A stretch of DNA of 64,000 nucleotides from assembly GCA_030372985.1 (NCBI GenBank), contig JAUCQB010000160.1, positions 1 to 64,000 on the forward strand, written 5' to 3'. Of this stretch, positions 17,438 to 48,270 are shown one piece after another (position 1 is the first letter of the stretch; each line of letters starts with the position of its first letter). The notes under the pieces are model-generated. The model did no database searches and was not told the origin of the DNA. It saw only the letters and a program-made list of their open reading frames with translations. This stretch comes from Phycisphaerae bacterium (GTDB lineage Bacteria > Planctomycetota > Phycisphaerae > UBA1845 > PWPN01). Both the position numbers and the translations under genes were made by a program.

Positions 17438-17481
17438 CCTGGTGAGGGGCGGGGGACGAGGGACGCGGGGCGAGGGCTGAT

Positions 17482-17646
17482 ATGAGCTCGCAGAGTAACA
17501 AGAAGGAAAATGTTCCGGTTTTCGTTCAGACCGCTGGTGCGAGAATCCTTTCTCGCACCTGTTTGCGAGGCGAATCCTTTCGCGCCCTGGCGGGATCGGA
17601 ATCCCGCGGTTTGTGGGGCCGAGATGGGAATCTCGGCCCAGCGTAG
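17482..17646 (+). pseudogene. 54-codon remnant duplicating the start of the DegT aminotransferase gene
   Basis: This frame (ATG 17482, TAG 17644-17646) encodes MSSQSNKKENVPVFVQT, which matches the N-terminus of the downstream aminotransferase (MCAQDDTKSDVPIFVQT) at 9 of 17 positions; DNA identity is high over gttccg..ttcgttcagaccg. The G-rich leader upstream is duplicated as well. After the shared part the frame runs through a cluster of four small hairpins, so it is unlikely to make a working protein. It is too short to have been a full enzyme; a partial tandem duplication about 190 bases upstream of the real start is the simplest reading. Confidence 0.6.
17536..17639. repeat. cluster of four small hairpins with conserved TCCN loops
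   Basis: Hairpin 1: GGTGCGAGAA 17536-17545, loop TCCT, TTCTCGCACC 17550-17559. Hairpin 2: GCGAA 17570-17574, loop TCCT, TTCGC 17579-17583. Hairpin 3: GCGGGAT 17590-17596, loop CGGA, ATCCCGC 17601-17607. Hairpin 4: GGGCCGAGAT 17616-17625, loop GGGA, ATCTCGGCCC 17630-17639. The last two read as loops TCCG and TCCC on the minus strand. Stems differ but loop type is kept. Confidence 0.75.
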
Positions 17647-22037: not shown

Positions 22038-23288
22038 ATGGCGAACCAAAGCACCATTGTCAGCAAGAACATCGGTCAGATCTTAACCAGCGCATTGGAT
22101 GCCGGTCAGGGCGTGTTGCGGCTGACCCCGACGTGGGTCCCGCGGAGCTTCCTGCACCCCGGACGGCGGATCAAACTGCACCCGGACGACTACTACGCCC
22201 TGGGGGCCGACCGCGGCGGCATCGACGAGCGGTGGTTCGCCAGCACCACCGAGGCCATGAACGAGAACCGGCTGCCCGACGAGGGTTTGAGCTATATCTC
22301 CTTTGAGGGCAAGCGCTTCCTGATGAAAGAGGCAGTGGCCGAGGCCGGCGTTCGGATGATCGGCAAGGCCATGTGGGACAAGTACAAGCGCTGGCCGGTG
22401 TACTCGAAGTTCTTCGACAACCTGGGGCCGATCCCGCATCACATGCACCAGCAGCACAAGCACGCCAAGCTCACCGGCCAGGAGGGTAAGCCCGAGGCAT
22501 ACTACTTCTCGCCGCAGATGAACAACTGCGACAACCACTTCCCGTACACGTTCATGGGGCTTGAGCCAGGCACGACCAAGGCGGACATCCGCCGCTGTCT
22601 GGAGAATTGGAACAAGGGCGACAACGGCATCCTGTACCTGACGCGGGCGTACCGGCTGATGCGCGGTTCGGGCTGGCTGATTCCGGCCGGCGTGCTGCAC
22701 GCCCCCGGTTCGCTGTGCACCTACGAGCCACAGTGGGGTTCGGACGTGTTCGGCATGTTCCAGAACATCGTCGAAGGGCGGTTCGTGCCCTGGGACCTGC
22801 TGGTCAAGGATGTGCCCAAGGACAAGCACCAGGACCTGGACTACATTGTCGAGCAGCTCGACTGGGAGAAGAACGTCGATACGCACTTCATGGAGCACAA
22901 CCAGTTGATCCCGATCGTGGACAAGGCCGCCAGCGGTCCGGGCTACACCGACAAATGGATCGTCTACGGCACGATCGACGGCCAGCAGGTGGTCAGTGCC
23001 AAGGAACTGACCGTCCAGCCCGGGGCCAAGTGTACGCTCAAGGACCCCGGGGCCAGCGGTTGGATCACTGTCCAGGGCAGCGGGCGGATCGGGAAGATGA
23101 AACTCCAGACGCCGGCGATGATCCGCTTCGGCGAGGAGACCGATGACGAGGTCTTCATCACCTACGAGGCGGCCACCCGTGGCGTGGAGATCGAGAACAC
23201 AGGCACCGAGCCGCTGGTGGGGCTGAGATACTTCGGGCCGGATGTGCATGCGAATCTGCCGAAGATCGGCGACCACAAAAAACAATGA
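22038..23288 (+). CDS. phosphomannose-isomerase-like cupin protein
   Basis: The 416-residue protein has a cupin with a metal site, GPIPHHMHQQHKHAKL near residues 128-143 followed by GKPEAYYF about 10 residues later, as in type I phosphomannose isomerases (His, His, Glu, His ligands). PAGVLHAPGSL near 225 matches the family PAGxxHA motif. Size and C-terminal beta domain also fit. These enzymes interconvert aldose and ketose phosphates, but homologues in this phylum are uncharacterised and the substrate could be another sugar or sugar acid. GGAGAG lies upstream of the ATG. It is followed by a TIM-barrel isomerase and a Gfo/Idh/MocA dehydrogenase, with an inserted four-helix-bundle gene in between. 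Confidence 0.75.
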   Translation: MANQSTIVSKNIGQILTSALDAGQGVLRLTPTWVPRSFLHPGRRIKLHPDDYYALGADRGGIDERWFASTTEAMNENRLPDEGLSYISFEGKRFLMKEAVAEAGVRMIGKAMWDKYKRWPVYSKFFDNLGPIPHHMHQQHKHAKLTGQEGKPEAYYFSPQMNNCDNHFPYTFMGLEPGTTKADIRRCLENWNKGDNGILYLTRAYRLMRGSGWLIPAGVLHAPGSLCTYEPQWGSDVFGMFQNIVEGRFVPWDLLVKDVPKDKHQDLDYIVEQLDWEKNVDTHFMEHNQLIPIVDKAASGPGYTDKWIVYGTIDGQQVVSAKELTVQPGAKCTLKDPGASGWITVQGSGRIGKMKLQTPAMIRFGEETDDEVFITYEAATRGVEIENTGTEPLVGLRYFGPDVHANLPKIGDHKKQ

Positions 23289-23303
23289 CCAATGACCAGA
23301 ACC

Positions 23304-23856
23304 CAATGACCAATGAATGACGAAGCCCGAATGACGAAGTTCAAATGACGAGGCTGCCGAACAGCGAGATGCTGATGAGCGAACACCTCCGAAACACGGA
23401 CCGACGAAAGGTGGGCTCAGAAAGAACATATGATCTGGAGGAACGTACGGCGAGGTTTGGCGAGGCGATCATTCAGTTCGTCAAGAAGGTGCCGGTTAAT
23501 CCGATTACCGAGCCTCTGATTGGGCAGTTGGTCAGAGCAGGGACAAGTGTGGGCTCGAACTACTGTGAGGCCGATGAGGCTGGTTCGGCGAAGGAGTTTC
23601 GATACCGGATCAGCGTCTGTAAGCGAGAGTCCAAAGAGAGCAAGTACTGGTTGCGGATGATCGCGGCCGCAGTTCCGGCGTTGAAGGATGAAGCCCGGGT
23701 CCATTGGCTTGAGGCCAGGGAGCTTACCCTGATTTTCGGTGCGATCCACCGAAGCAGGAAAGGTCGACGACAAGCAGTCGGACAGGCTTAGCCCAGCACG
23801 AGAAGCAGTCGCGATGGGCCGCTTCGTCGTTCGGGTTTGGTCATCGATTGGTCATT
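23304..23856. repeat. IVS-like element 1: inverted-repeat arms around a four-helix-bundle gene
   Basis: The left arm 23304-23339 (units of AATGACCAATGA/AATGACGAAG) is an imperfect reverse complement of the right arm 23822-23856, over about 36 bases with a 3-base gap and few mismatches. Between them lies the gene at 23345-23791. More degenerate copies of the unit extend the arms on both sides (23283-23303 and 23857-23880). The element is about 550 bases. Confidence 0.7.
23345..23791 (+). CDS. four-helix-bundle protein (23S rRNA intervening-sequence family), element 1
   Basis: The family core begins near YDLEERTARFGEAIIQFVKK and continues with QLVRAGTSVGSNYCEADEAGS and ESKESKYWLRMIA, the classic pattern of the S23/bIVP family (TIGR02436): helix 1 with DLEERT, then LxRAGTSVGSNYxEA, then E(S/T)xYWL. 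The family folds as a pentameric helical bundle like the Avd subunit of diversity-generating retroelements. The 148-residue frame includes a N-terminal extension; start sites at 23369 or 23375 would also serve. It sits inside an inverted-repeat element between two sugar-metabolism genes. Its function is unknown; two more family members are at 25649 and 47206. Confidence 0.85.
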   Translation: MTRLPNSEMLMSEHLRNTDRRKVGSERTYDLEERTARFGEAIIQFVKKVPVNPITEPLIGQLVRAGTSVGSNYCEADEAGSAKEFRYRISVCKRESKESKYWLRMIAAAVPALKDEARVHWLEARELTLIFGAIHRSRKGRRQAVGQA

Positions 23857-23897
23857 CAAGCTTGGACATTGGTCATTATGAGTAGGGAGGAATACCT

Positions 23898-25419: not shown

Positions 25420-25559
25420 GATCTGAGATCTGAGATTTGAGAGTTGGAATCCAGGATCGGAGACTCAGAACGCGGGATTTGAAATCTGAGTTTTGAATGT
25501 CGAAGGTCTGAGACTCGGGACATGGGATTTGAGATCTGAGATTTGAGATCTCAAATTTG
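25420..25559. repeat. degenerate gatttgagatct tandem repeat upstream of four-helix-bundle gene 2
   Basis: About ten imperfect copies of units such as GATCTGAGATTTGAG and GGGATTTGAAATCTGAG fill this stretch and end in the palindrome ATTTGAGATCTCAAAT. The same unit recurs inside the gene (25926-25957) and after it (26333-26362). Confidence 0.75.
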
Positions 25560-25648
25560 TCAATCGCGAATTCGTGCTTGCGACGTGGTGTTTGGGATTC
25601 TCAGTGCTCTGGGGCGTCCCGGTTTACAGTCTGCGAAAGGAGCCAGCA

Positions 25649-26188
25649 ATGACCTACCAACGTTTCGAAGACCTGCCCGTTTGGCAGGCGGCGATGGAAC
25701 TGGCTGTGCGGGTCTTCGCCCTGACTGAAGACCGGGCTTTCGCGAACAAAGGCGACTTGCGGAACCAGCTACAGCGGGCGGCCATTTCGGTAGGTAACAA
25801 CATCGCCGAGGGCTTCGAGCGGGGGACAACGCAGGAATTGCTGACCTTCCTGTATATCGCGCGGGGCTCGGCCGGCGAGGTGAGATCGATGCTGCTGTTG
25901 ACCGATCGGCTTCCGCATTTCAGCCATTTGAAATCTGAAATCTCAGATTTGAAATCCCTGGCCGAATCGATCTCGCGCCAGCTCCGCGGCTGGGCCGACA
26001 GCCTGCAGAACTCGCCCATCACCGGCCAGCGGCATCTCAACGAGCCGACGCGTCAGCAGCACCAGCATCAACGTCGGTCAAACGAATTCTGGCAGAAGCT
26101 GGAGGCCGATCACCGTCGGCGGATAGAGGGACATATCACCGGCCAGCCGGGTCTTGGCAGAGAATCAAAGGCGACCGATACACCTTAG
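25649..26188 (+). CDS. four-helix-bundle protein (23S rRNA intervening-sequence family), element 2
   Basis: ATG 25649 is preferred because AAAGGAG lies 6 bases upstream, giving 179 residues. The family core runs FEDLPVWQAAMELAVRVFAL, RNQLQRAAISVGNNIAEGFE, RGTTQELLTFLYIARGSAGE and a long C-terminal helix ISRQLRGWADSLQNS, which is typical of planctomycete members. Between the third and fourth helices, SHLKSEISDLKSLAES is encoded by the same degenerate repeat that lies outside the gene (25926-25957). The residues after about 130 form an extra, charged tail (QHQHQRRSNEFWQKLEADHR). Function unknown; the whole element lies between the broken Cys-rich gene and the Gfo/Idh/MocA gene. Confidence 0.82.
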   Translation: MTYQRFEDLPVWQAAMELAVRVFALTEDRAFANKGDLRNQLQRAAISVGNNIAEGFERGTTQELLTFLYIARGSAGEVRSMLLLTDRLPHFSHLKSEISDLKSLAESISRQLRGWADSLQNSPITGQRHLNEPTRQQHQHQRRSNEFWQKLEADHRRRIEGHITGQPGLGRESKATDTP

Positions 26189-26262
26189 ATCTCTGGAGAT
26201 CCGAATGCAGACTAAGGGTTACCGTCTTGGCCGGTCGTAAGGGGGCCTTGACCTGCCGTCAT

Positions 26263-26328
26263 GGCAGTTCGCCCTGCAGCCACAGCCAGTTCGCCCTGCA
26301 CCCGGAGGCGGTTCGCCCGCGGCTGTGC
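26263..26328. repeat. three tandem copies of a 22-base unit
   Basis: Units start at 26263, 26285 and 26307 and share GGCAGTTCGCCCTGCA or variants (GCCAGTTCGCCCTGCA, GGCGGTTCGCCCGCGG), each followed by 6 variable bases. The gap 26189-26521 otherwise holds only a gatttgag-type repeat at 26333-26362 and no gene. Confidence 0.7.
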
Positions 26329-26332
26329 GGCT

Positions 26333-26362
26333 ATTTGAGATTTGAGATTTCAGATTTGAGAT
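26333..26362. repeat. right-hand gatttgag repeat of four-helix-bundle element 2
   Basis: TTTGAGATTTGAGATTTCAG and the following GATTTGAGATCCC repeat the unit seen at 25420-25559. The unit is nearly self-complementary, so the arm can be read as direct or inverted with respect to the left array. Confidence 0.6.
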
Positions 26363-26521
26363 CCCCGTTACCGGCCGCGTGCATGGGGCCTTCTGCGGTC
26401 TGGATGTCAGGCTCGTCGCCCTTGCCTCCTTCGGTACTCGCTATTACGATTCGACTCATCGCCGATGCTGATCGGCGGCATTTGAGAAGGGTCTGCAGCG
26501 AGTTTCAGGAGTGTTTACACC

Positions 26522-33423: not shown

Positions 33424-33507
33424 AGACGGGGCTGGGGACTTGGGGCTGGAGCCTGGGGAGCGGGACCGGTTTCCCGCTAGCCCCCAGCCCCCAATCCCCA
33501 GTCCCCG
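33424..33507. repeat. long imperfect G-rich/C-rich hairpin in the nudix-tyrS gap
   Basis: Left arm 33428-33465 (ggggctggggacttggggctg...agcggga) pairs imperfectly with 33472-33507 (tcccgctagcccccagcccc...agtcccc); the inner stem is AGCGGGA 33459-33465 with TCCCGCT 33472-33478. It lies in the divergent promoter region of two genes. Confidence 0.6.
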
Positions 33508-33568
33508 CAGCCTGCCCGTGCAGAGGGCGGGCTGTTGAACGGTCGTTGTTGGCAGGGATAATAACCGC

Positions 33569-34884: not shown

Positions 34885-34959
34885 GTGGGGGCACCCGACA
34901 CCCGCCCCTGATCGCCGAGTCCGAGAACCCCGACGCTTGAACCCTGGACTCTGAGCTCT

Positions 34960-34987
34960 GAACCCCGAACCCTGAACCCTGAACCCT
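34960..34987. repeat. four tandem copies of a 7-base unit (GAACCCY)
   Basis: GAACCCC at 34960 is followed by three GAACCCT copies ending at 34987. A looser run of ctgagctctgaacccc-like words begins near 34935. The repeat lies between tyrS and the pilus-like gene. Confidence 0.7.
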
Positions 34988-35067
34988 GCCGGCTTTACGG
35001 CCGACCCTCGTCTAGTCACTTGGTCCCCCGTATATTCCGATGGAGTTTTAACGGAGGATTTGGGCCG

Positions 35068-38916: not shown

Positions 38917-38935
38917 GAGCTGTCAGCGGTCAGCT

Positions 38936-39098
38936 TTCAGCAATCAGCTTTCGACGATCAGAAGCGGCCGACCATTGGGTCGGCCACTTCATTTCGCTGA
39001 ACTGAACCGAACGCCGCACGTGAGCAATGAAAACACTCCTACACAGACAGGATTCCGGCGATCCGTAGCTGAAAGCTGAGAGCTGAAAGCTGAGAGCT
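38936..39098. other. degenerate agctgaaagctgag repeats between the pilus-like gene and hemA
   Basis: Copies of AGCTGAAAGCTGAG-type units lie at 39067-39098, and related cagctttcagcaatcagctttc words at 38936-38957. The gap (38917-39096) holds no gene. Confidence 0.55.
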
Positions 39099-40389
39099 AC
39101 TCTTCGATCTTCAGATCGAAGAGTGCCCTCAGCATCTCCGCATACACGCGTCCCGCGCCGGGGGCTGAGTCGCCGGTGAGGCGGCTGACCGGTCCGTGGA
39201 GGAGCTTGCCGGTCAGGCGGTGGAGCATCTGTTCGATCAGTTCGCGGTCGTGGGGCGAGGCGTTTTCGAGCTTGGGCAGAATGCGCTCCAGTTCCTGACG
39301 GCCGATCTCGCGGAAGTGCTTTTCGAGGGCGGCGATCAGCGGGCCGACATCCTCGCGTGACTGCCGGTCGGCCAGTTCGACCACGGCGGCCTCGATGATC
39401 TCGTGGCACTTGGCAACGGCCTCCTTTCGCTGGGCGAGGTGGGTCTCAGTCACGGACTGCAGGTCGTCGATATTGTACAGGTAGACGCAGTCGCAGCGGC
39501 CGACGGCGGCGTCAACGTCTCGCGGCAGGGCGATGTCGATCAGCAGGATCGGACGATAGGCACGCCGGGCCGGCACCGGGGAAAAGGCCTCGGCGGTGAG
39601 GATCGGTTCGCGAGAACCGGTGCAGGTGATGACGATATCGGCCTCGGCCAGCCGCTCGACCCAGTCGGCAAAGGCGATCGGCTCGACGGCCAGGTCGTGC
39701 TGCCGGCTCAGCCGCTTGGCCACCTCGACGGCCCGGGCGTCCGTCCGGTTGGTGACCCAGACACGTTGCGGCCGGGTCTCGATCAGATGAGTCAGGGTCA
39801 TCTCGCCCATGCCGCCGGCGCCCACCATCATCACCGTCTTGTCGGCAAAGTGGGAGAAGATCTGCCTGGCCAGATCGACGGCCGTGCTGCCCACGCTGAG
39901 CCGGCCGGTGGCGATGCCCGTGGTGGCATGGATGGTCTTGGCCACCGCCAGGGCCTGCTGGAACAGCGGGCCGAGCCGCCGGCCGACCGTTCCGGCCGTG
40001 CGGGCGGTCTCAAACGCGTCACGCGTCTGCCCGACGATCTGCGACTCGCCCAGGACCATCGAATCGAGCGAGCTGGCTACCCGCAGCAGGTGCCGGACCG
40101 CCTGCACGTCCTCGTGGACGTACAGGGTGTCGGCGAACTCGTGCATCTCGATGCCGTGAAACTCGCCGATGAAGGCGATCGTTTCGTCGATTCGCGGCCG
40201 GCCCTGCATCGGTCGTGAAACATAGAACTCGACCCGGTTGCAGGTTGACAGCAGCACCACCTCGGCGTCCGGGAACCGCTGCTTGAAGCGTTCGAGGGCG
40301 GCCGGCACCGCGGCCTCGCCGAAAGCGATTTTCTCACGCTTCTCGACGGGTGCGGAACGGTGATTGCAGCCGACGACGAAAGTTCTCAT
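39097..40389 (-). CDS. hemA: glutamyl-tRNA reductase
   Basis: The 430-residue protein catalyses the first step of C5 tetrapyrrole synthesis, reducing Glu-tRNA to glutamate semialdehyde with NADPH. The N-terminal catalytic Cys is C50 in LLSTCNRVEF, exactly where it is in the family. VGAGGMGEMT near residue 190 is the NADPH-binding motif, and the C-terminal helices form the dimerisation domain. It overlaps the upstream CcsA/HemX-like gene by 4 bases (40386-40389), so the two are translationally coupled, as in hemA-hemX operons. The last codons contain a perfect 12-bp inverted repeat (39099-39110 with 39113-39124). Confidence 0.96.
   Translation of the reverse strand: MRTFVVGCNHRSAPVEKREKIAFGEAAVPAALERFKQRFPDAEVVLLSTCNRVEFYVSRPMQGRPRIDETIAFIGEFHGIEMHEFADTLYVHEDVQAVRHLLRVASSLDSMVLGESQIVGQTRDAFETARTAGTVGRRLGPLFQQALAVAKTIHATTGIATGRLSVGSTAVDLARQIFSHFADKTVMMVGAGGMGEMTLTHLIETRPQRVWVTNRTDARAVEVAKRLSRQHDLAVEPIAFADWVERLAEADIVITCTGSREPILTAEAFSPVPARRAYRPILLIDIALPRDVDAAVGRCDCVYLYNIDDLQSVTETHLAQRKEAVAKCHEIIEAAVVELADRQSREDVGPLIAALEKHFREIGRQELERILPKLENASPHDRELIEQMLHRLTGKLLHGPVSRLTGDSAPGAGRVYAEMLRALFDLKIEE
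39099..39124. repeat. 26-base hairpin at the 3' end of hemA
   Basis: ACTCTTCGATCT and AGATCGAAGAGT form a 12-bp stem with a two-base centre, encoding the last residues of HemA. No T run follows on either strand, so it is more likely a structural or protective 3' hairpin than an intrinsic terminator. Confidence 0.65.
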
Positions 40390-46066: not shown

Positions 46067-47146
46067 ATGCTCCGAATGGGCTCTCTGTCGCTCGATTTCC
46101 CCGTCGTTCAGGCCGCGTTGAGCGGCTACAGCGATCTGCCCATGCGCCGGGTCGCACGCATGCTCGGGGCATCGTACGCCCTCAACGAGGTGGTGCTCGA
46201 TCGGCTGGTCATCCAGAAGGGCCGCAAACGCCGGGCGATCACGACTGTTCATCCCGACGATCATCCTGTCGGCGGCCAGCTCATGGGGGCTGAGCCCAAC
46301 GCCTTTGCCCAGGCGGCCGACGCCCTGGTGCAGGCTGGCTATGACGTGGTGGACATCAACTTTGGCTGCCCGGTCAAGAAGGTGCTCGGCCGTTGTCGGG
46401 GTGGCTATCTTCTGTCCGACCCTGAAGGGGCGCTGGCGATTGTTCGGGCCGTCGTCGAGGCCGTCGATCATCGCCGGCCGGTGACACTCAAGATGCGGCG
46501 GGGCATGGACGACAGCCTCGAGAGCGAGCGGAAGTTCTTCACCATTCTCGACGGTGCCTTTGCCGCTGGCATCGATGCAGTGACGGTGCATCCGCGCACC
46601 GTCCGCCAGCGGTATGTCGGGCCGAGCCGATGGCCTTTCCTCAGGCGGGTCAAGCAGCACGTCGGCGACCGGATCGTGCTGGGCAGCGGTGATTTGTTTT
46701 GTGCGGAGGATTGCCTCCGCATGATGGCCGAGACCGGCGTGGACGGCGTGGCCGTCGCCCGCGGCTGCATCGGCAACCCGTGGCTCTTCCGGGAGTGTCG
46801 CGAACTGCTGGCCGGACGGCCGGTCCCGCCGGCTCCGTCGGTGCCCGAGCAGGGAGACGTCATCGCTCGCCACTACGCCTGGACGGCCGAGTCTTACGGC
46901 GGGAAGGCCGCGGGCAAGGTCATGCGCAAGTTCGGCATCAAGTACAGCGAATTGCACCCTATGGCACGGCCGGTTCGCGACGCCTTCATCGCCGCCAAGA
47001 CCAGTGCCGACTTCCAGGCCGTCCTGACGCAATGGTATGATCCCGGCCGACAATGGCCGCCGGGCATCCGCCGAACCGGTCCGGGCCATCTGGTGGCGGC
47101 AGGAGCGAGGATGGACGTCCAGGCATCTAGCCTTCTAGACCTCTAG
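46067..47146 (+). CDS. dus: tRNA-dihydrouridine synthase
   Basis: The 359-residue protein is an FMN TIM-barrel: VVQAALSGYSDLPMRRVA opens the fold, VGGQLMGAEPNAF and VDINFGCPVKKVLGRCRGG follow, the Cys of GCPVKKV near residue 104 being the active-site general acid. VTLKMRRGMD and VTVHPRTVRQRYVG and ARGCIGNPWLFRE close the flavin site. It reduces uridine to dihydrouridine in tRNA. Which position (D16, D17, D20) is not clear, so a DusA/B/C letter is not assigned. The ATG at 46067 and 46076 are both possible starts. Confidence 0.93.
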   Translation: MLRMGSLSLDFPVVQAALSGYSDLPMRRVARMLGASYALNEVVLDRLVIQKGRKRRAITTVHPDDHPVGGQLMGAEPNAFAQAADALVQAGYDVVDINFGCPVKKVLGRCRGGYLLSDPEGALAIVRAVVEAVDHRRPVTLKMRRGMDDSLESERKFFTILDGAFAAGIDAVTVHPRTVRQRYVGPSRWPFLRRVKQHVGDRIVLGSGDLFCAEDCLRMMAETGVDGVAVARGCIGNPWLFRECRELLAGRPVPPAPSVPEQGDVIARHYAWTAESYGGKAAGKVMRKFGIKYSELHPMARPVRDAFIAAKTSADFQAVLTQWYDPGRQWPPGIRRTGPGHLVAAGARMDVQASSLLDL

Positions 47147-47644
47147 GCATTTAGGCCTTCGGGATTTGAAGTTGTCAGGTTGTCATACGAGAGGAGGCCG
47201 AGACCGTGAGAGATCATAAGAGGCTCAAAGCCTTTCACGCCGCTGACGAGTTGGCGTTGCTTGTCTACAAGGGTACTCGGAGCTTTCCGCGGGAAGAGCA
47301 GTCTGGCCTGACGTCGCAGATGCGACGAGCCGCCGTCTCAGTTCCCTCCAACATCGTCGAAGGTTGCGCGCGCCCGACCGAAACCGACTACATTCGCTTT
47401 CTTGGGACCTCGTTTGCGTCGCTTCAGGAATTGCAGTATCAGGGATCTCTGGCCAACCGGCTGGGCTATCTGCGAGACGAGTCGTATTGGGCCTTCGACA
47501 GCCGGTGCACAGAGGTCTCGAAGATGCTGGCCGCCCTGATTCGATCCCTGCGGAAAGCTCGATCAGTCGCAGTCCGAATGGCTGGAGGCCGGGATGCCTA
47601 GATATCCAGAAGACTCAATGTCTAGAAGTCTAGAGGTCTAGAAG
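47132..47644. repeat. IVS-like element 3: perfect 15-bp inverted repeat around a four-helix-bundle gene
   Basis: CTTCTAGACCTCTAG at 47132-47146 is the exact reverse complement of CTAGAGGTCTAGAAG at 47630-47644. Further degenerate copies of tctagaagtctagagg-type units (47599-47655) and of catctagccttctagac (47124-47150) extend the arms. The enclosed gene is at 47206-47601. Length about 510 bases. Confidence 0.75.
47206..47601 (+). CDS. four-helix-bundle protein (23S rRNA intervening-sequence family), element 3
   Basis: A GTG start with GAGGAGG nearby gives 131 residues, the usual size of the family. The pattern is complete: LKAFHAADELALLVYKGTRS (helix 1), LTSQMRRAAVSVPSNIVEGC (helix 2), RPTETDYIRFLGTSFASLQE and LQYQGSLANRLGYL (helix 3), and CTEVSKMLAALIRSLRKA (helix 4). 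It lies between the dihydrouridine synthase gene and a membrane protein gene, inside a 15-bp inverted repeat element. It is the best-preserved of the three members. Function unknown. Confidence 0.9.
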   Translation: MRDHKRLKAFHAADELALLVYKGTRSFPREEQSGLTSQMRRAAVSVPSNIVEGCARPTETDYIRFLGTSFASLQELQYQGSLANRLGYLRDESYWAFDSRCTEVSKMLAALIRSLRKARSVAVRMAGGRDA

Positions 47645-47691
47645 ACCAGAAGTCCAGTAATCCGCGAGTCCCATTGTCCTGGAGATCGATC

Positions 47692-48270
47692 GTGTCCTTC
47701 CTCACCCGCATCCTCTTCGAAGACCTCGCGATCCTGCTCATGATCGAGTTTCTGGTGCTCATGTCCGTGCTGGCCGTCCACCGGCGGCGGATGACGCCCC
47801 GCACGCGCCGGGCGGTGTATATCACGCTGGCTTGTTGTGCGGCCGTTATCGCTCTCAACAAGCTGGTGAGCACTGACGGCGAGCGGATTGTTGAAACAGT
47901 CTCGGCCATCGCCAAGGCGGTCGATGAGGGTGATGTCCCTGCGATTGCCGAGGACCTGGATGACGAGTTTCGGTACCGCCACTGGGACAAGGACGGTTTC
48001 GTGGCGGAGCTGAACAGCAAGCTTCAGCGGTGGCGGATCGACGAAGTCAAGGTGGGTCGGTTTGAGACCCGGGTAGATGGTGACGTGGCCACGACCTCCT
48101 TCCGGGCATCCTGCGACTGGAGGGGCGGCCACGACTCCCAGGCCGGGGTGGCCAGCGCCTGGACACTGGAGCTGGTCCGCCGGCCTGGCGGATGGAAGCT
48201 GCGACGCGTCGTGAGCGCCAAGGTCGGCCCCGGCTACAAGATCGACCTGAACGACGTTTGGAACTACTGA
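47692..48270 (+). CDS. membrane-anchored protein with NTF2-like C-terminal domain
   Basis: A GTG start at 47692 has GGAG 7 bases upstream and is preferred to the TTG at 47674; the product has 192 residues. Two transmembrane segments (FEDLAILLMIEFLVLMSVLAV and AVYITLACCAAVIAL) are followed by a globular domain (TVSAIAKAVDEGDVPAIAED, DDEFRYRHWDKDGFVAELN, WRIDEVKVGRFETRVDGDVA, WTLELVRRPGGWKLRRVV) that has the alpha-beta pattern of NTF2/SnoaL-like folds. It probably faces the periplasm. I recognise no catalytic motif; the role is unknown. Confidence 0.65.
   Translation: MSFLTRILFEDLAILLMIEFLVLMSVLAVHRRRMTPRTRRAVYITLACCAAVIALNKLVSTDGERIVETVSAIAKAVDEGDVPAIAEDLDDEFRYRHWDKDGFVAELNSKLQRWRIDEVKVGRFETRVDGDVATTSFRASCDWRGGHDSQAGVASAWTLELVRRPGGWKLRRVVSAKVGPGYKIDLNDVWNY

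Follow-up and report, generated by a model that had tools for sequence, protein, structure and literature searches.

The intervening sequences (IVSs) of 23S rRNA genes, such as those of Coxiella and Leptospira, carry an S23p/IVP gene (PF05635) in a loop closed by complementary, stem-capable ends; they have been described as selfish, and heptamer repeats (GACAGAT) lie upstream of S23p in the IVS of Coxiella (PMC4990558). In REP/RAYT systems (REP-associated tyrosine transposases, REPINs, BIMEs) a single small gene is flanked on both sides by its own repeat, the two copies being inverted, the abundance of the repeat tracks the cognate gene, and gene-less inverted pairs are scattered in intergenic DNA (PMC2817692). 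Intergenic tandem arrays of 7 nt have been repeatedly reported from cyanobacteria (short tandemly repeated repetitive sequences, STRRs), Xanthomonas (GGGAATC) and giant sulfur bacteria (Beggiatoaceae, TAACTGA) and have no known source, while the widespread family PF05635, despite solved structures, has no known function. The closest approach to a link between the two is the suggestion by MacGregor that a repeat-binding protein might itself be the mobile element (PMC4679880), but neither S23p nor a four-helix gene is mentioned there or in PMC4692102, and no stated link between four-helix genes and heptamers was found in the literature searched, a scope that left out preprints and most subscription journals. 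Here, we analyzed an element with an S23p/IVP gene located between a tRNA-dihydrouridine synthase (dus) gene and a DUF4440 gene in a 64-kb stretch of a Phycisphaerae bacterium (contig JAUCQB010000160.1, positions 1 to 64,000, the whole of which is hereafter called the window), together with its counterparts at other loci (designated by L-numbers).

The feature is probably a small mobile element of ~540 bp, composed of an IVP/S23p gene and two inverted tandem arrays of a short word, which is 8 nt long in this case (Table 1). A first-pass annotation of the stretch had described exact 15-bp inverted arms enclosing a four-helix-bundle gene, and both parts of this description were confirmed: CTTCTAGACCTCTAG (47132-47146) and CTAGAGGTCTAGAAG (47630-47644) are exact reverse complements, and the open reading frame between them matches PF05635 (E 4e-32) and TIGR02436 (3e-32), i.e., "S23p/IVP", with bAvd as the second Pfam match. 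The AlphaFold2 (AF2) model of the protein is a four-helix bundle (pLDDT 96), for which the closest structures are 2gsc from Xanthomonas, then 2rld, and then Avd (4dwl, TMq 0.73; also 8ub7). The window has two cases of perfect 15-mers inverted at a distance of at most 600 bp (counted by start pairs), compared with none in 20 block-shuffled windows. The annotation understated the arms: the exact 15-mers are where longer, imperfect inverted arms match best, and both arms are degenerate tandem arrays, in opposite orientation, whose 8-nt word is close to TCTAGAAG. The arm score, calculated by comparing the left flank with the reverse complement of the right flank, is 26, while 0.2% of the 1,034 sliding windows taken from this genome score at least 21.

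The IVS-like layout noted in the annotation stands, the complementary ends closing a loop in which the S23p gene lies. Nevertheless, the element is not a classical IVS because it is not in rRNA (neither Rfam families nor tRNAs were found in the window): it lies at a stop codon between protein-coding genes, and elements of this kind have tandem arrays of 7- or 8-nt words as arms, as well as gene-less copies. The three traits given above for REP/RAYT recur here, the tracking of abundance in Xanthomonas only and with phylogeny ignored. In contrast to RAYTs, IVP has no HUH/Y1 tyrosine nuclease (Pfam and fold comparisons returned only PF05635/bAvd four-helix bundles), and its units are 7/8-nt tandem words instead of GTAG-headed palindromes. 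We thus file the element under neither system, because the nuclease that defines RAYTs is absent and the location differs from that of IVSs. It also differs from classical insertion sequences, having no transposase of a known class, and from diversity-generating retroelements, with whose Avd it shares the fold, as no reverse transcriptase, template or variable repeat is present in or beside it. The reported heptanucleotide repeats resemble the class as a whole in being intergenic 7-nt tandem arrays; here, however, the arrays are the arms of a four-helix gene, and the word in the window has 8 nt.

The same architecture recurs in many phyla. Among 170 PF05635 genes examined (from Planctomycetes, Cyanobacteria, Proteobacteria, Bacteroidetes, Acidobacteria and others), ~80% had inverted arrays of 7- or 8-nt words, with the word being specific to the element and other periods being rare (best period 7 or 8 in 139/144 elements). 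Using flanks exchanged between elements as a control, the 95 elements from the same bacterial order as the window had a median arm score of 24, compared with 11 for the permuted flanks and 12 in direct orientation, and 68% of them exceeded the permuted 99th percentile, a level exceeded by 1% in direct orientation and 1% at the Dus-locus control. For 75 further elements with usable flanks (named genomes, many phyla) the median was 22 vs. 11, with 80% above the permuted 95th percentile, and all eight cyanobacterial plasmid loci examined gave the same inverted-array result (L130 and L131 being near-identical). In the genome of the window itself, each of the eight PF05635 genes has inverted short-word flanks (scores 17-32) with differing words. 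A scan for degenerate arrays recovered ten of period 7 or 8 in the window and none of period 5, 6, 9, 10, or 11, while 284 kb of the same genome held 14 arrays of period 7, six of period 8, one of period 6, three of period 9 and none of periods 10 and 11. Stop codons within the words were also considered as the cause of these periods, but a sense-strand stop trinucleotide is present in 54% of the words vs. 44% of letter-shuffled ones, making it at most a partial cause.

The words follow the protein. Word similarity rises with protein similarity (Mantel test, 0/500 permutations as high), and in 51 pairs of related elements with differing flanking genes it amounted to 0.42 vs. a background of 0.21; mapped on the protein tree, the choice between periods 7 and 8 required 16 changes, compared with 27.6 (minimum 22) when labels were shuffled. 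Coordinated changes of the arms in orthologous loci, a check suggested in the annotation, were indeed found: both arms switched their word together in L007 vs. L060/L096, in L084 vs. L121/L122, and at the accB|accC locus of Xanthomonas, where one group has GGGAAT and the other GGGATTC. The order of units, however, was mirrored between the arms (p<0.05) in just 13/105 elements, and arm mismatches were not biased toward G-U pairs on the sense-transcript side (129 vs. 124, p=0.80); on these grounds a sense-RNA hairpin was rejected as the selected feature. Since the words follow the lineage, a G-U preference is absent and the mirroring is weak, we infer that the arms share a lineage-specific vocabulary of putative binding sites more than they form a stem selected base by base. 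The elements of the window are, as first described, unrelated in sequence and alike in layout; the accompanying proposal that structure and not sequence is selected is only partly borne out: the joint change of both arms fits it, while the lineage-bound words, the missing G-U preference, the scarce mirroring and the genes without detectable arms do not support it as worded.

That the unit is mobile is seen from a transposed copy, from gene-less derivatives and from empty sites whose identity reaches 98%. An IVP element is present in Trichormus and Scytonema plasmids and absent from Microchaete and two Nostoc plasmids with ~98% identical flanks; the sequence of the empty site is AAGTAATTAAC, and in the filled one GTAAT stands on both sides of the element (a 5-bp duplication), one base past the TAA of the upstream gene. 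The Nostoc plasmids have a second polymorphic site inside the upstream stop codon and a third just past the stop codon, where the element is flanked by TAATG/TTATG. Filled and empty sites also include an integrase locus, with the element placed after the integrase gene, and the interval between cas6 and cas4, where two cyanobacteria have four-helix genes with arms and their relatives do not. The transposed copy is the L234 element, which is 83% identical to the L137 element and has different neighbours; L223 is a decayed copy, and in a Nostoc plasmid (L233) a gene-less element of ~185 bp with the same arms lies inside the IVP gene (about 830-1010). At the locus of the window, IVP is missing between dus and the DUF4440 gene in five relatives from the same family, in line with the annotation's suggestion to look for empty sites at the dus junction, and one of the five (L013) has a gene-less pair with a different word at this junction. 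The search for an empty site of the Nostoc nrd element found no relative.

The unit is located at the stop codon of a neighbour far more often than expected by chance. For the 82 elements in which a neighbouring gene is read in the direction of the left arm, the upstream stop was at a median of 1 nt before the start of the array and within 15 nt of it in 62% of cases; when only stops within -75..+60 were considered, 71% were within 15 nt vs. 14% for random positions. Elements are found mostly between co-directional genes (70 (+,+) vs. 24 (-,-)), and antisense as well as convergent placements occur. In the window, the dus frame continues for seven codons inside the left arm and takes the TAG of the word (47144-47146) as its stop, while the dus of the relative L010 ends right after ...DVE, just before the point where the window frame enters the arm.

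Xanthomonas connects the gene with a known family of dispersed repeats. In Xanthomonas campestris, Rehm et al. counted 186 GGGAATC arrays, a large share of which form inverted pairs, and they gave 70-75 inverted heptamer pairs per Xanthomonas genome, without mentioning a four-helix gene (PMC4692102). GGGAATC/GGGATTC is present in tens to hundreds of scattered copies in this genus, and the Xanthomonas IVP, orthologous to the solved protein (2gsc), has GGGAATC as its arms. In 35 species, the word flanking IVP was also the one relatively enriched among the arrays of the genome, for GGGAATC as well as for GGGATTC (p=2e-4), while five genomes with an absent or decayed IVP had 0-64 word matches vs. 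a median of 135 (p=2e-4); both tests ignore phylogeny and are used as supporting evidence only. At accB|accC in four species (L266-L269) the IVP gene is missing and a gene-less inverted pair of GGGACCC heptamers takes its place.

Tentatively, but as a serious possibility, these elements may form a new autonomous class present in many phyla, in which a nuclease-free pentameric four-helix protein would read lineage-specific inverted arrays of 7/8-nt words and direct insertion at stop codons, and which could be the common source of STRRs, GGGAATC, TAACTGA and the rRNA IVSs. On the narrower and more probable explanation favoured here, that of a small mobile element, the IVP pentamer would recognize the arrays as the ends of the element and, together with host enzymes and a putative catalytic partner, would copy or move anything placed between a pair of inverted arrays. 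Landing at a stop codon would be largely harmless, given that a new stop is provided by the array and that the element can fold into an intergenic hairpin; in RNA, this hairpin may be trimmed by RNase III, as known for rRNA IVSs. In its logic this would be comparable to the RAYT transposases with their REP repeats, although neither the protein nor the repeat is the same. If the link between gene and repeats holds, the dispersed heptamers and PF05635 would each explain the other, and a mobile element would exist that moves without a recognizable nuclease and prefers stop codons.

Several points weigh against the favoured explanation. No nuclease, transposase or reverse transcriptase domain was detected in the window IVP (Pfam/TIGR matches), and the reverse transcriptase family RVT_1 was not matched in 23/35 Xanthomonas genomes, the array-richest among them; given that PF05635 has no known catalysis, the catalytic step is left unexplained. 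The 5-bp target duplication is exact at one site, 4/5 at another and ambiguous at others, about 20% of PF05635 genes have no detectable arms, no base-exact empty site was found in a close relative for the window element, and the Xanthomonas abundance tests leave phylogeny aside. Moreover, some IVP loci are kept at the same site across genera, and the gene also keeps its site in 31/35 Xanthomonas species, as if it were a resident that is perhaps of use to the host. This conservation, together with purifying selection on the IVP gene (dN/dS ~0.28, which counts in favour of the mobile element as well), the position of arrays at stop codons and the gene-less pair between convergent genes at 38918-39105, is what would be expected if the inverted arrays were bidirectional terminators or protectors of mRNA 3' ends and IVP a resident regulator binding to them; a step of mobility is nonetheless required by the transposed copies, by presence/absence polymorphism where the sites are otherwise near-identical, and by insertions into an IVP gene and between cas genes, so that such a host module is decidedly unlikely.

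Somewhat less improbable, albeit still unlikely, is an intervening sequence acting at the RNA level, whose arms would be kept for a transcript stem cut by RNase III to separate the mRNAs of the flanking genes, mobility being secondary. In its favour, the RNA fold predicted for the window element pairs the arms (z -3.3), RNase III excises rRNA IVSs that carry the same gene (the heptamers of the Coxiella IVS fit here as well), and neighbours are mostly co-directional, but the lack of a sense-strand G-U preference, the weak unit-by-unit mirroring, the antisense and convergent placements and the location outside rRNA argue against it. The fold match to Avd of diversity-generating retroelements and the bAvd match could point to IVP acting as the partner of a reverse transcriptase, with the element spreading via an RNA copy; as neither the elements nor their immediate neighbours include such a gene and RVT_1 is missing from array-rich Xanthomonas genomes, reverse transcriptase appears not to be needed, and we regard this explanation as very improbable. 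Finally, slippage of microsatellites beside an unrelated gene, or chance, would account for short degenerate tandem repeats as such, but is hardly credible and already contradicted by these data: inverted pairing around PF05635 greatly exceeds every control, periods other than 7 and 8 are uncommon, and the words follow the protein.

The window is not limited to the two elements named in the annotation: it contains three PF05635 genes with arrays (~23.4, 25.7 and 47.2 kb) in addition to a gene-less pair (Table 1). The GAGATTT arrays of the second element match in direct as well as in inverted orientation. At the gene-less pair, the TAG stop of the left neighbour is found at the edge of the array, and the convergent right-hand gene also seems to stop inside the right array.

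Table 1. Positions of the IVP element, its neighbours and related features in the window.
Feature	Position	Strand	Remarks
Left arm	47112..47165	+	degenerate tandem 8-nt array, CTTCTAGA-like; holds exact 15-mer 47132-47146
Right arm	47604..47656	-	reversed array, word TCTAGAAG; holds exact 15-mer 47630-47644
Four-helix-bundle gene	47206..47601	+	PF05635 23S_rRNA_IVP / TIGR02436, S23p, 131 aa; relative of solved 2gsc (XCC0516)
tRNA-dihydrouridine synthase (dus) gene, upstream	46067..47146	+	frame enters left arm, stops at array TAG 47144-47146
DUF4440 gene, downstream	47674..48270	+	directly after dus in relatives, without four-helix gene between
Related element	23284..23877	+	PF05635 match 23441-23665; AATGACC heptamer arms 23284-23339 / 23822-23877
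Related element	25524..26365	+	PF05635 match 25667-25987; GAGATTT heptamer arrays 25524-25556 and 26333-26365
Gene-less inverted heptamer pair	38918..39105	.	TCAGCNN word; putative non-autonomous derivative

Solitary heptamer arrays of other words were also seen in the window (17441-17484, 33471-33517, 34938-35001, and 1079-1127). At the cas6|cas4 insertions (L132 2001-2360, L135 1995-2363), which belong to type I-D CRISPR operons of cyanobacterial plasmids, cas6 now terminates within the array. The IVP element of L007 adjoins, on its right flank, a gene that resembles a bacterial microcompartment vertex protein (EutN/CcmL) when its translation is read by eye.
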